A stretch of DNA of 33,618 bases, from the IMG/VR virus record IMGVR_UViG_3300042939_000350, positions 1-33,618 of that record; one strand, given 5' to 3'. This DNA is from a virus. Made by a program: the position numbers and the translations under genes. Numbering within the stretch: position 1 is the first letter of the stretch; every line of letters begins with the position of its first letter. Below the pieces are notes generated by a model. It saw nothing but the letters and a program-made list of their open reading frames with translations. It had not been told where the DNA came from and searched no databases. This document shows positions 48 through 6,877 of this stretch, piece after piece.

Positions 48-218
48 ATCGTCAGTTGTCAATCGTCGTCAATCGTCAACGGTTATCAATCGTCAACGGT
101 CATCAGTCGTCATCAGTTGTCAACGGTCATCAGTCGTCATCAGTTGTCAACGGTCATCAATCGTCAATCGTCAATCGTCGTCAATCGTCAATCGTCGTCA
201 ATCGTCAGCCCATGTATG
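48..218. repeat. Degenerate tandem repeat of 7- and 10-bp units
   Basis: The stretch is built almost entirely from two interleaved units: a 7-mer of the form ATCGTCA (variant GTTGTCA) and 10-mers such as ATCGTCGTCA, ACGGTCATCA and GTCGTCATCA. A higher-order 27-bp unit is repeated perfectly at 96-122 and 123-149, and a third partial copy begins at 150. Open frames across it encode only the repeat itself (Ser-Ser-Val-Asn-Gly-His-like), so it is not treated as coding. Function is unknown. It could be a protein-binding array or replication-slippage product. Confidence 0.9.
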
Positions 219-498: not shown

Positions 499-2028
499 AT
501 GAGTACAATTTTTAATTATCACACCACAATATCGGACGCGATGCACGCGGCCCGCATTTATAGCAACTATAGCGACTACATGAGTAAAATATCGGACCGC
601 TTTAAAAACCCATGTTTCGGGGTTGAAATCGAGAAACAGAACAGCGATTATAAGCAAGCGGAGGAGGCTGAGGAAATTGTAAAGCGCGCGTTTTTTGAAG
701 CGGGCGAAATATGGATAAAGGAGCGCGACGGCAGTTTAAATTCTTCGGGCTATGAGCTAAAGAGCCCGCCAAAGGAATTAACGCCAAACGCAGCCGACCT
801 ACTACAATTTTTTGCCCCTGTGTCGTACTTAATAAACGCCGACGAAACCAGCGGAAGCCCGCAAAATTGCGGAGGGCATATCCACCTAAGCCACCCGCAA
901 TATAGACCCGCTCAACTTTACCAGTATTTGCTGGGATGTTTGCCCGTTTTGTACGCGCTCTACATTGATAGAATAACCGAAAGCAGCACAACGAAAAACG
1001 AGCAAATTAGAAAGGGCCAAACCACGGAAAGCCCGCGTTATAAGTTTAGCGGAGGATATTGCAACCCTAAGCCGATAGCCCGCGACACGCGCCACGACCC
1101 CGCGTATATGTTCGCTGAAAAAAACTATTTAGGGATGAACAGCGAAGGTACAAGCGACAGCCGATATAACGCAATAAGTGTAAACAGCAGCAGCGGGAAA
1201 ACTTTAGAATTTAGGTTATTCCCTATTATTCACGACACGGCCACCCTTGTTTGGAGAGTGCAGTTAATAGAACTATTTCTAAGGTCCTATTTTCGGCAAA
1301 GTGAGCAGCAAATAGGAAAGGCAATTTTAGACCCGAGCAGCGAACTAAACCGACATTTGAGCGAATTGTATACGCCCTTGGGTATTGTTGGTATCTATCG
1401 TTTATTCATAGTAACCGCCCGCGACCTCCATAGCGTACCATTTAGGCCCAATAGCGAGTACCACCAAAAGCGAGTACAAACCTATTTGGAGCAAACAAGT
1501 TTAGCCGCCAGCCACAGCCGACCAATAACGACCAATGGGCGCAAGTGGGCCAGGCCGTACGCAAAAATTAGGGCCGCATACGCGGATATAAAAGCCCGAG
1601 GACTAAACCATACGCAGTTGAAAGCAAAAGCCGAAATCGGGAAGAACGACAGCGAGCGGAACGCCATAAGCCACGAGAGAACACAGCTACTAAACGAGCA
1701 GAACAAATTGAACGCCTTAATTAAAAGCCTAAGCGACAAAGTAAGTATAAACGCTATGCAGGCAAGCGGCCAAAAGTGGCGCGATGCGTTGAGCGCGTTA
1801 AACTCAGACGAAACGAGGGCCATATATGCGGAACTTTCAAAAGCCCAAGCCGACTACAATTTGATATTTGAAAAAACGGACATTTTGCGAAACGCGGCAA
1901 ACCAAATAAGGGAAGCGGAAAAGTTATTTCAGTTTTTAGCCGAGGATGTAACGCCCGAACCCGAGCCCGACCAATCCCGCGACAACACCGAGCGCGCAGA
2001 CCCACCGACAACACAAACCGAATGTTAG
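499..2028 (+). CDS. Amidoligase (GS-fold COOH-NH2 ligase)
   Basis: This 509-residue protein matches the Amidoligase_2 type, glutamine-synthetase-fold enzymes that join a carboxylate to an amine using ATP. Visible family motifs in order are FGVEIE (40-45), RDGSL (76-80), YELKSPP (85-91), CGGHIHLS (124-131) and LEFRLFP (236-242). The acidic residues, histidines and arginine in these are expected to bind metal and ATP. From about residue 370 the C-terminus is charged and heptad-like, probably coiled coil, ending in an acidic Pro-rich tail. The stop overlaps a tiny membrane ORF, and a class II glutamine amidotransferase follows, so the pair could use glutamine-derived ammonia. The substrate is unknown; peptide, cell-wall or protein modification are possible. 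Codon choice (AGC, CGC, GCG, AAC) looks different from the virion genes, hinting at separate origin. Confidence 0.8.
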   Translation: MSTIFNYHTTISDAMHAARIYSNYSDYMSKISDRFKNPCFGVEIEKQNSDYKQAEEAEEIVKRAFFEAGEIWIKERDGSLNSSGYELKSPPKELTPNAADLLQFFAPVSYLINADETSGSPQNCGGHIHLSHPQYRPAQLYQYLLGCLPVLYALYIDRITESSTTKNEQIRKGQTTESPRYKFSGGYCNPKPIARDTRHDPAYMFAEKNYLGMNSEGTSDSRYNAISVNSSSGKTLEFRLFPIIHDTATLVWRVQLIELFLRSYFRQSEQQIGKAILDPSSELNRHLSELYTPLGIVGIYRLFIVTARDLHSVPFRPNSEYHQKRVQTYLEQTSLAASHSRPITTNGRKWARPYAKIRAAYADIKARGLNHTQLKAKAEIGKNDSERNAISHERTQLLNEQNKLNALIKSLSDKVSINAMQASGQKWRDALSALNSDETRAIYAELSKAQADYNLIFEKTDILRNAANQIREAEKLFQFLAEDVTPEPEPDQSRDNTERADPPTTQTEC

Positions 2029-2090
2029 ACTTACTCATTTTGCTAATCCTTATTTTCCTAACCTTAAAAAACAAACTTAAAAATCATTAA
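2022..2090 (+). CDS. 22-residue hydrophobic microprotein
   Basis: The ATG at 2022 overlaps the last codons of the amidoligase gene in another frame, and the stop lies four bases before the next gene. The product starts MLDLLILLILIFLTL and ends in a lysine-rich tail (KNKLKNH), giving a single membrane-spanning segment with a basic end. Position and tight spacing suggest translational coupling between the two flanking enzymes. It could be a membrane anchor or helper peptide, or simply a coupling device. No homology can be claimed from this length. Confidence 0.4.
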   Translation: MLDLLILLILIFLTLKNKLKNH

Positions 2091-2093
2091 ACC

Positions 2094-2756
2094 ATGTGTA
2101 CCTTAATAGTAAACCCAAGAAAAGCCCAAGTTATAAGCCTTGACAATTTTAATAATTTGTGGGATAATAATCCTGATGGAGCAGGCTTCGCCTATGTTCG
2201 TGGCAACCGCGTAGAAATCGTTAAAGAGATGAGCAGTGCAGCCGAATTGTGGCGTAAGTACATAGACATACGCAACAGCACGCCCCACCCCATTATATTG
2301 CATTTCCGCATTTCGACCCAAGGCCGAGTAAATGAAGCCAACGCGCACCCGTTTAGAGTGCATGAAGCGTTAGCCTTCGCCCATAATGGAGTAATAACCA
2401 CCGCGCCATACGACAAGAACCACAGCGACACCGCGTTATTGGTCCGAGATGTATTAGCCAAGTGGCCTAAGGACTTTATTAACCGCAAAGGATACCCCGA
2501 GGCACTTAAGTACATAGCGGGAGGCTCGAATAAATTTGCCTTATTGAATGGAAGCGGGCAGACGTTGATAATAAACCCGCACCTTTTCCACGAACACGAG
2601 GGCAGTTTATACTCAAATCAAGGTTACAAACCCGCGGTATATTGCAGTCCCGTAACTTATGGTCGATACTATGATACCACCGGGAAAGCGATAAACAACA
2701 AGATAAGCACAAGGCCAACCGAGCCCGAAGATTATCGGAAGTGGTGGCAGAAGTAA
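2094..2756 (+). CDS. Class II glutamine amidotransferase
   Basis: This 220-residue protein begins Met-Cys, placing the nucleophilic cysteine at position 2 as required for N-terminal nucleophile (Gn-AT II/YafJ-like) glutaminases. Other matching motifs are NPDGAGFAY (26-34), HFRIS (70-74, with the glutamine-binding arginine), AHPF (84-87) and HNG (97-99). It is about the size of a stand-alone glutaminase domain, with no synthetase domain attached. It should hydrolyse glutamine and release ammonia, and the amidoligase 66 bases upstream is the obvious partner. The Cys2 requirement fixes the start codon. No clear ribosome-binding site is visible. A strong terminator follows 26 bases after the stop, so these genes form one short operon. 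Confidence 0.85.
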   Translation: MCTLIVNPRKAQVISLDNFNNLWDNNPDGAGFAYVRGNRVEIVKEMSSAAELWRKYIDIRNSTPHPIILHFRISTQGRVNEANAHPFRVHEALAFAHNGVITTAPYDKNHSDTALLVRDVLAKWPKDFINRKGYPEALKYIAGGSNKFALLNGSGQTLIINPHLFHEHEGSLYSNQGYKPAVYCSPVTYGRYYDTTGKAINNKISTRPTEPEDYRKWWQK

Positions 2757-2781
2757 CCAACGCCAGAACCAAAGTAAAAAG

Positions 2782-2806
2782 AGCCCGAATTTTCGGGCTT
2801 TTTTTT
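2782..2806 (+). terminator. Rho-independent terminator after glutamine amidotransferase
   Basis: A stem of AGCCCGAA (2782-2789) and TTCGGGCT (2792-2799) is followed by an uninterrupted T run to 2806. It lies 26 bases past the stop codon and closes the amidoligase operon. Confidence 0.92.
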
Positions 2807-2956
2807 ATCTGATGAATTGAATAAACAAGGAAGTGAGGAGGCGAGAGGATAAGGACATAGGGGAATAAGGTCGTAGGGATATTCCACCACGCACACACAG
2901 CGACAAAAATCTTCAAAAGGTAGAAACATACCACCCAAAAAGAAAACGTCTACAAT

Positions 2957-3667: not shown

Positions 3668-4700
3668 TACGGGTTCGGCATTTTATAGGTTAGAGATGCC
3701 TCATACTCGTATGATTGAGGTTTGTCCTGATATTTCGGTTGTTTCTACCGATAATGTAGACTTTTTAACTCCGCAGGAGCTTTCTATTATAGACCTTTTT
3801 GTTGTTTCGAGGAGTTTTGCCTCGAATCCCGATGAGTTAAAGGTTAGACTTGCTCTAATGAAGTCCTTTGGTGCTGGTGTTATACTCGATATTGACGACT
3901 ACTGGCACTTAGGCACTGGCCACTCGTTTTATAAGCACTATTTAGACAACAATCTCTCTGAGCTCGTAGCAGCGCATATAAGACATTCCGATGCTGTTAT
4001 TGCCACAACTACCTATTTAGCAAAAGAGTGTCTTAAATTGAATAAAAACGTTGAAATACTGCCTAATATACCCTACCCTCATCTCTTCGAGCAGTTTCAG
4101 CGTAAACCCGTTGATAAACCCCTTTTTTCGATAGGATATTTTGGGGCTGCTCAGCATGAGGAAGATGTTGAGATATTAAGAATATCTATGGGTAAGCTTG
4201 CCCATGACCAAAGCCTTGATGGAAGATACAACTTGTACCTTGCAGGATGGAATGACAACCCCGTTTATAGAGCATACGAGAATATTTTTAGCTCTAACCT
4301 CTATAACATAAATTACAAGAGAATAGCTGCTGCCGACATATATTCTTACATTGGTGGTTACAACTTCGTTGATGTTTCGTTAGCACCTTTAAGGAACACT
4401 AAGTTCAACTCATATAAGTCTGAACTCAAAATATCTGAGGCTGCTATTATGGGGAAGGCTATTATTGCATCTGACATACCGATGTATGCTGACTGTATTG
4501 AGGATGGTGTTCACGGATTTCTCATCCCTGAGCATAAGCACTCTTTATGGTACAAGAGGATTAGGCAGCTCATAAACGAACCTGTGATTGCACAGGAGCT
4601 TGCATCCAATCTGAAGGCTCGGATGGCTGAATACCTAAATGCCGAGCAAAACGAAAATAAAAGAATAAATATGTATAAAAGTTTTTCGAGAGAGAAATAG
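3636..4700 (+). CDS. GT4-like (GT-B fold) glycosyltransferase
   Basis: The product is about 354 residues from the ATG at 3636. A TTG at 3600 would add 12, but the protein-like sequence begins at MVVCLLYTSSNTGSAFYRL, typical of the N-terminal strand and loop of GT-B enzymes. It contains ILDIDDYWHL in the N-terminal domain. In the C-terminal domain, KSELKISEAAIMGKAIIASD followed by EDGVHGFL corresponds to the GT4 sugar-nucleotide-binding region. It should transfer a sugar from an activated donor, with unknown acceptor. It stands alone, 13 kb from the other glycan genes, behind a long non-coding region and before a strong terminator, so it is probably a separate unit. Family is confident, specificity is not. 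Confidence 0.82.
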   Translation: MVVCLLYTSSNTGSAFYRLEMPHTRMIEVCPDISVVSTDNVDFLTPQELSIIDLFVVSRSFASNPDELKVRLALMKSFGAGVILDIDDYWHLGTGHSFYKHYLDNNLSELVAAHIRHSDAVIATTTYLAKECLKLNKNVEILPNIPYPHLFEQFQRKPVDKPLFSIGYFGAAQHEEDVEILRISMGKLAHDQSLDGRYNLYLAGWNDNPVYRAYENIFSSNLYNINYKRIAAADIYSYIGGYNFVDVSLAPLRNTKFNSYKSELKISEAAIMGKAIIASDIPMYADCIEDGVHGFLIPEHKHSLWYKRIRQLINEPVIAQELASNLKARMAEYLNAEQNENKRINMYKSFSREK

Positions 4701-4753
4701 TTGTATATTTGTGCGTAGTCTCACTTGGGTTGTGGGAGTTTAGGTGTTTAGAG

Positions 4754-4786
4754 AATAGGGGGAGCGCATACCCCCTATTTTTTTTT
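4754..4786 (+). terminator. Rho-independent terminator after glycosyltransferase
   Basis: AATAGGGGG (4754-4762) pairs perfectly with CCCCCTATT (4771-4779) around an 8-base loop and runs into a T tract to 4786. A TATATTTG box at 4704-4711 and a further hairpin TCTCAC (4719-4724) with GTGGGA (4732-4737) lie between the stop codon and this terminator. Confidence 0.92.
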
Positions 4787-5998: not shown

Positions 5999-6877
5999 CT
6001 ATCGCGTGCTTGTCGTTGTAAACCAAGCATCTATAACACGAACATCAGAGCCATCCACCCTCATCTTATGGTATTTCAACTTCATCCAGTAACCGCCGAG
6101 CGGTTTCGGAGGTCTGCCCCTCTCGACGTGGAAGCCACCCACTCCGCCTGCATACTCTTCTTTGTATGTTGCAGTGCGTATTTGGTGTAGAGGCCGTTGT
6201 TTAATCATATAGTCCCTCCTGTTTAGGTATGTAACCATGTTAATATGGTGATACAACTCGTGGACGTGGCCTTGCCATGTGCAGTCGTAGCCTTCAACCA
6301 TCGCCATAATACGCTGGTCTTGGATAACTCCTTTCGTTACTGACCCGCCTCCGCCTGAGCCGTGGTAATAGTACATAGCGAAACGGTTGTAGTGCTTCGC
6401 AGCTATGGCGTTACGGAATCCAAACAGTATCGCGCCGCCATATCCACCAACCTGAACGTTAGTCTTACATTCGTGGTTAAGCAGGGTTACAAACATCTGT
6501 AAGGCATCGAACTCTACATTTTTTATTACACCCGTTTCATGGTTTCCATAGCCTATAAGGATGATATGATGAGCGTATGGCTTAAACCATTCGACAGCAC
6601 TATTGACAACCGCCTGAAGGTAGTTGCCCACATTATGCTCAGGTCTTATCTCGTTTTTGTTCCTGCGCGGGTCTCCACGCCCCTGCATCAAACAAAAAAA
6701 GTCCCCATTTACGATAATCCCCGCCCCACGTTCTACTGCCTCGTCGAGGTGTTTTTTGAGTAATATCCTGTCGCAATGAGGATTGTCCCAATGAAGGTCG
6801 CTTATCAGTAAAAACTCCGCCTCTCTACCCTCTAAGTCAACGGTATGTACGTTAACTGAGTGTCGGGTTATGTTCAT
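5999..6877 (-). CDS. Calcineurin-like metallophosphoesterase
   Basis: This 292-residue protein carries the complete two-metal motif set: SDLHWD (26-31), NGDFF (57-61), GNHET (111-115), YHGSGG (171-176) and GHVH (203-206). It should hydrolyse phosphomono- or phosphodiesters; phage members can be nucleases, cyclic-nucleotide phosphodiesterases or phosphatases. The C-terminal part is basic and aromatic, with no recognised domain. It is transcribed away from the terminase genes, upstream of the endolysin. A TATATTTG box precedes it. Substrate is not predictable, but catalytic competence looks intact. Confidence 0.85.
   Translation of the reverse strand: MNITRHSVNVHTVDLEGREAEFLLISDLHWDNPHCDRILLKKHLDEAVERGAGIIVNGDFFCLMQGRGDPRRNKNEIRPEHNVGNYLQAVVNSAVEWFKPYAHHIILIGYGNHETGVIKNVEFDALQMFVTLLNHECKTNVQVGGYGGAILFGFRNAIAAKHYNRFAMYYYHGSGGGGSVTKGVIQDQRIMAMVEGYDCTWQGHVHELYHHINMVTYLNRRDYMIKQRPLHQIRTATYKEEYAGGVGGFHVERGRPPKPLGGYWMKLKYHKMRVDGSDVRVIDAWFTTTSTR

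Follow-up and report, generated by a model that had tools for sequence, protein, structure and literature searches.

A freshwater phage represented by a 33.6-kb IMG/VR virus record (the window, i.e., the entire stretch of 33,618 nucleotides analyzed, which includes terminase, tape-measure, portal, and tail genes) carries an intact, accessory two-enzyme module of an already published kind. The first gene encodes a divergent relative of the Amidoligase_2 proteins with a predicted glutamine synthetase (GS)-like fold and the last a predicted class-II (Ntn) glutaminase. Between them lies an ORF for a hydrophobic microprotein, the sole part of the module for which no earlier description was found. 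The operon would quite plausibly, if far from certainly, serve the glutamine-dependent amidation of a carboxylate, with a host cell-envelope peptide as the probable target.

Gene Layout and Genomic Context

The three ORFs proposed in an earlier note on this DNA are all confirmed (Table 1), as is its description of the module as terminated, in that a hairpin followed by a T-run at 2781–2807 is conserved in the window-clade contig L003. The terminator folds as a single extended stem (−17.9 kcal/mol); in a consensus terminator scan, the hairpin was called only for the minus strand, and the number of hits in the scan did not exceed that in shuffled sequences. The gene leaders are A-rich with no evident Shine-Dalgarno sequence.

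Table 1. Coordinates of the module and adjacent elements in the window.
Feature	Position	Strand	Description
Degenerate 7-bp (CGTCAAT) repeat array	60–207		Upstream of the module
Putative amidoligase	499–2028	+	509 aa; predicted GS-fold core, residues ~39–330; C-terminal helical extension, ~355–482
Microprotein	2022–2090	+	22 aa, single-TM-like, MLDLLILLILIFLTLKNKLKNH; start lies within the amidoligase ORF, near its end
Predicted class-II (Ntn) glutamine amidotransferase/glutaminase	2094–2756	+	220 aa; Met-Cys start, Cys2 as predicted nucleophile
Intrinsic terminator	2776–2807	+	AGCCCGA-ATTT-TCGGGCT, then T-run; also in L003

The annotated neighbors of the module are genes for a glycosyltransferase, an amidase-type endolysin, a metallophosphoesterase, and a terminase; no ATP-grasp, GGCT, or second ligase gene is present among them, and the short ORFs carry no assignment. 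Just ahead of the module, a low-complexity stretch rich in TG/GTGTG gives way to GGGCAT repeats (210–320), and the glycosyltransferase ORF overlaps at its 3′ end with a predicted tRNA-Pro (ggg) at 4692–4784. The metallophosphoesterase-like gene (5999–6877, minus strand) corresponds to phrog_7339; calcineurin-like genes of this kind also occur in OM43 phage genomes beside amidoligase and GATase genes (PMC10580990). The window TerL has only distant relatives among isolates, with Bacteroides phage BS-TP3 and Flavobacterium phage 11b among the best, and we infer a Bacteroidota host. A scan of genome contigs returned a single distant relative, L131 (23% identity over 101 aa), which is not informative on the host.

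The Amidoligase

That the first ORF encodes a GS-fold amidoligase with intact motifs, as the earlier note had it, holds up by motif alignment, a profile–profile match, and GS fold matches. Its motifs GVEIE, RDGS, YEL, GGHIHLS, RY, and EFR align, at the level of sequence comparison, with the catalytic residues of Pfam-positive Amidoligase_2 phage proteins. They contain the GS-like catalytic pattern (ExE, DxS, E, H, and ExR), and residues E43, E45, D77, S79, E86, H127, E237, and R239 are invariant in 25 homologues. In a profile–profile comparison, the window clade together with its relatives matches the Pfam-positive Amidoligase_2 proteins with an E-value of 1.8e-12. Among IMG/VR candidates, tblastn reaches L099 (E 5e-23, a value relative to the candidate stretches only), the amidoligase of which is PF12224-positive (E 3.2e-7).

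On its own, the window protein matches neither PF12224 nor, convincingly, any other Pfam or NCBIfam family, while its homologues in L099 and L105 score 30.9 and 24.0 bits, respectively, against a PF12224 cut-off of 22, and 11 of the 25 aligned homologues match this family at E ≤ 0.01. By these sequence comparisons, it is therefore classed as a divergent relative of Amidoligase_2 rather than a Pfam-definable member. Searches of isolate phages by tblastn found no homologue, so the homology was reached via the glutaminase neighborhood and IMG/VR intermediates. Neither the amidoligase nor the glutaminase alone has a phmmer match in the PDB.

The structure models were built from window and IMG/VR sequences only. 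That of the amidoligase has moderate confidence (pLDDT 69, pTM 0.62), and Foldseek returns 48 PDB matches at E ≤ 1e-3. Glutamine synthetases are at the top (best match E 3.7e-6, probability 1.0), and γ-glutamylmethylamide synthetase and YbdK are also found. Because TM-scores to GS are low (about 0.25), the GS-like fold predicted by the model is secure only at the superfamily level. The L014 homologue lacks the C-terminal helical extension, but comparison of the window with L003 shows this part of the protein to be under purifying selection. Two weak matches of the protein, to Pfam Seryl_tRNA_N (E 0.046) and to PADLOC PDC-S49 (E 0.0015), fall on this extension and were judged coiled-coil artefacts. 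With no PADLOC match to the glutaminase or the homologues tested, a reading of the module as a defense system was dropped.

The Glutaminase

The last ORF is assigned, by sequence and model, as a class-II glutaminase domain closest to GlmS, with predicted glutaminase activity, in agreement with the minimal Ntn enzyme with Cys2 envisaged earlier. It matches GATase_4 (E 2.7e-9) as well as GlmS subfamily models, the latter with scores below their cut-offs. A profile of nine phage homologues retrieves the GlmS glutaminase domain (1xff, E 2.7e-10). The AlphaFold model (pLDDT 86) resembles GlmS (E 1.7e-8), PurF, and EgtC (E 3.7e-5), so that 1xff is the closest solved structure by both profile and fold; unlike GlmS, the window enzyme stands alone, without the isomerase domain.

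Across 25 homologues, Met1-Cys2, N26, G31, H70, R72, H85-P86, H97-N98-G99, and S111-D112-T113 are invariant, including the class-II set C2, R72, N98-G99, and D112. From what is known of GlmS, we take these to include the nucleophile, the glutamine-binding Arg and Asp, and the oxyanion hole (Asn-Gly).

Conservation of the Pair

Searching IMG/VR with the amidoligase gave 13 loci, ten of which lie outside the window clade, and the glutaminase is directly downstream in every one. In the reverse direction, 25 loci were found with the glutaminase, two of which (L122 and L123) are cut by the contig end; the amidoligase is directly upstream in 21 of the 23 assessable ones and is lacking there in L127 and L130. 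Window-clade contigs are counted in both sets, which also hold the near-duplicates L112/L113, L117/L118, and L124/L125. By comparison, only one of 80 control loci selected by terminase contains either gene (L056, with both, adjacent), although this control is approximate because many of its loci are short.

Isolate or reference phages with the amidoligase immediately upstream are MEP401, ctgrD200, MT835576, Acinetobacter phage vB_AciJM_313, and ctfjg026; in PV036454 it is four genes away from the glutaminase, and in Stenotrophomonas phage StenR_269 it sits within a larger, mixed cassette. Because these reference phages formed part of the HMM training set, their detection is not independent, as opposed to that of the IMG/VR loci from L099 on.

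Altogether, the pair is adjacent on the same strand in ~30 diverse phage loci, and this adjacency supports a functional coupling of the two genes. Both are under constraint, with pN/pS values (window versus L003) of about 0.10 for the amidoligase and 0.06 for the glutaminase. Other genes can adjoin the pair: GGACT (γ-glutamylamine cyclotransferase) is directly upstream in L099 and L105, and in L129 (837–3174) an overlapping amidoligase–glutaminase pair comes immediately after genes for RtcB RNA ligase and for an ATP-grasp ligase.

The Microprotein

The microprotein ATG falls within the final codons of the amidoligase ORF (stop–start overlap). Its members are MLDLLILLILIFLTLKNKLKNH in the window and L002, MIDLLILLILIFLTLKNKLKNH in L003, and MNRLFYFLLLLFILFFILKPNKPN in L014, the last starting at an ATGA overlap. 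Lengths are 22, 22, and 24 aa, and the position, the overlap, the hydrophobic core, and the polar Lys/Asn-rich tail are retained even though the L014 enzymes have diverged from those of the window (39% identity for the amidoligase and 67% for the glutaminase, which the contig end truncates in L014). The three-gene order that the earlier note had seen as one system thus recurs in three distinct modules of the window's own clade and nowhere else among the loci compared; a general three-part system is not borne out. Further scans found no more members, and in no other clade with the pair are the two genes separated by an ORF comparable to it.

Could the 22-aa ORF be untranslated, its hydrophobicity a chance product of a T/A-rich spacer? 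It is very short, the window and L003 differ at just four codons (three synonymous changes and one conservative nonsynonymous change), and the pair does without it in every other clade. The features kept in L014 speak against such an accident, as does the best 15-residue hydropathy (2.96–3.22, compared with 1.73 or less in every other gap between the two genes), and we consider it fairly improbable. Since these features persist in the divergent L014 while other clades have no counterpart, the microprotein is probably a real, clade-specific component.

It is possible, though doubtful, that the microprotein serves as a third functional subunit, either recruiting the pair to the membrane or regulating its activity, with a lipid-linked substrate. 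If so, the window clade would hold a membrane-targeted amidation system. Homologous pairs have no evident clear TM segment, so membrane proximity would not be a general requirement.

An Accessory Module at a Variable Site

The module is accessory and occupies a variable site, since the close relative L027 (93% identity to the window phage in both terminase and glycosyltransferase) has a different cassette there: L027 shares the left flank (72% DNA identity) and the right flank (89%), but where the module would stand it has other genes, among them one for a RadC-like JAB protein. L014/L098 and L002 have left-flank genes in common, from which it follows that the L014/L098 module lies at the same place and diverged there.

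The earlier note had read a different codon usage as a sign that the genes move as a unit. Presence or absence as a unit is seen in L027, but the codon difference is only moderate: T3 is low in the module (0.17–0.21, versus 0.25–0.41 in the other window genes measured) and A3+C3 is high, while overall GC is not unusual.

CGTCAAT-type arrays like that of the window occur in L003 (5659–5738), L098 (5482–5543), L056 (6218–6358), and L027 (1094–1183 and 2425–2507). In L027, which lacks the module, the two arrays bracket the RadC-like JAB and DUF3867-like cassette at the same site, and a 25-mer of the array has many exact IMG/VR matches in contigs of the same terminase family; the array may for these reasons act as an origin-like element or as a recombination hotspot at which cassettes are exchanged. 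At L027 1379–2356, the RadC-like JAB gene (PF04002, E 4.8e-35) is next to the DUF3867-like gene (E 0.0019, below the cut-off); a counter-defense role for the two is possible but speculative.

Proposed Mechanism and Alternatives

In the favored scheme, the Ntn enzyme, with its Met removed and Cys2 as the nucleophile, would hydrolyze glutamine, releasing ammonia and leaving glutamate. The GS-fold amidoligase, presumably in complex with it, would activate a carboxylate with ATP to an acyl-phosphate, and attack by ammonia (less likely by an amine) would yield the amide. The use of glutamine nitrogen for amide synthesis, put forward in the earlier note, is plausible. The target would most likely be a carboxylate on a host cell-envelope peptide, e.g., a peptidoglycan precursor, and the envelope change could benefit the phage through superinfection exclusion or lysis control. 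In the window clade, translation of the microprotein is probably coupled to that of the amidoligase, and the peptide may hold the two enzymes close to a substrate bound to the membrane. Within the window, no sequence evidence ties the pair to the cell wall, and the literature yielded no biochemical evidence for any phage amidoligase–glutaminase pair.

The main rival is a γ-glutamyl cycle in which the GS-fold ligase would attach glutamate to an amine through its γ-carboxyl, with the Ntn enzyme serving as a γ-glutamyl amide hydrolase instead of supplying ammonia. In ergothioneine synthesis, EgtA (γ-glutamylcysteine ligase) and EgtC follow such install/remove logic. The Ntn model has EgtC among its nearest fold matches, yet GlmS glutaminase domains outrank it by both profile and fold; GGACT genes precede the pair in L099 and L105, yet the window module shows none. 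The annotation of the long L010 (ctfjg026) glutaminase as a γ-glutamyl cyclotransferase and the ligase fold matches to γ-glutamylmethylamide synthetase and YbdK also suit this cycle. Residues that recognize the γ-glutamyl group are common to both kinds of enzyme and do not discriminate, and the sequence cannot separate the two readings; on balance, we hold the cycle to be unlikely, albeit a serious contender.

Slightly less likely again is that the pair acts not on the wall but in the synthesis of a small modified metabolite or in the isopeptide or amide modification of a protein from host or phage, with the microprotein as a bystander. Several pairs are near replication genes (DnaB-like, DNA_pol_A) and not lysis or wall genes, and the ATP-grasp and RtcB genes adjoining the L129 pair would fit. 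Iyer et al. 2009, as represented by its title and the papers citing it, covers both types of modification. Against this, published related phage cassettes have been interpreted as acting in peptidoglycan modification, itself a prediction (PMC5498523, PMC11945000).

For the favored amidation of the cell envelope, bacterial enzymes make a wall target chemically plausible, given that the class-II enzyme LtsA amidates DAP in lipid intermediates. LtsA is described as a PurF-type amidotransferase with this activity (PMC7920481), and PMC3267633 provides, in MurT/GatD, a precedent for a ligase and a GAT acting together on wall precursors.

Comparison with Known Systems

GatD is a class-I GAT, and LtsA belongs to class II. 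MurT/GatD and AsnB/LtsA are works-like analogues of the window pair, as each combines a ligase with a glutamine amidotransferase to amidate a carboxylate, but their ligase folds (Mur ligase and Asn synthetase, respectively) are unrelated to that of the window amidoligase.

Recurrence of the pair in many unrelated phages suggests that its product matters more than the window locus alone. The window version is minimal (two enzymes in about 2.3 kb, with no other cassette genes) and thus tractable for finding the substrate, and the clade-specific membrane peptide provides a testable hint to substrate location. Cassettes of the phiEco32/LUZ24/RIO-1 type likewise hold an amidoligase together with a glutamine amidotransferase, but these multi-gene podovirus cassettes, named for peptidoglycan modification by prediction, add ATP-grasp, GGCT, and a second ligase, whereas the window has only the two enzymes and the microprotein (PMC5498523, PMC11945000).

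In the OM43 Methylophilales phages MEP401 and MEP402, an amidoligase (PF12224) is followed by an adjacent class-II GATase (PF13522) on the same strand; the paper reporting both genes repeats two hypotheses, the synthesis of secondary metabolites and, with reference to Iyer et al. 2009, a wall modification that prevents superinfection (PMC10580990). Their glutaminase is about 31% identical to that of the window. There are several differences between the two modules: the MEP401/MEP402 genes overlap by 10 bp with no microprotein, the phages belong to a different family, and the amidoligase of MEP401 is long at its N-terminus but lacks the C-terminal helical extension of the window enzyme.
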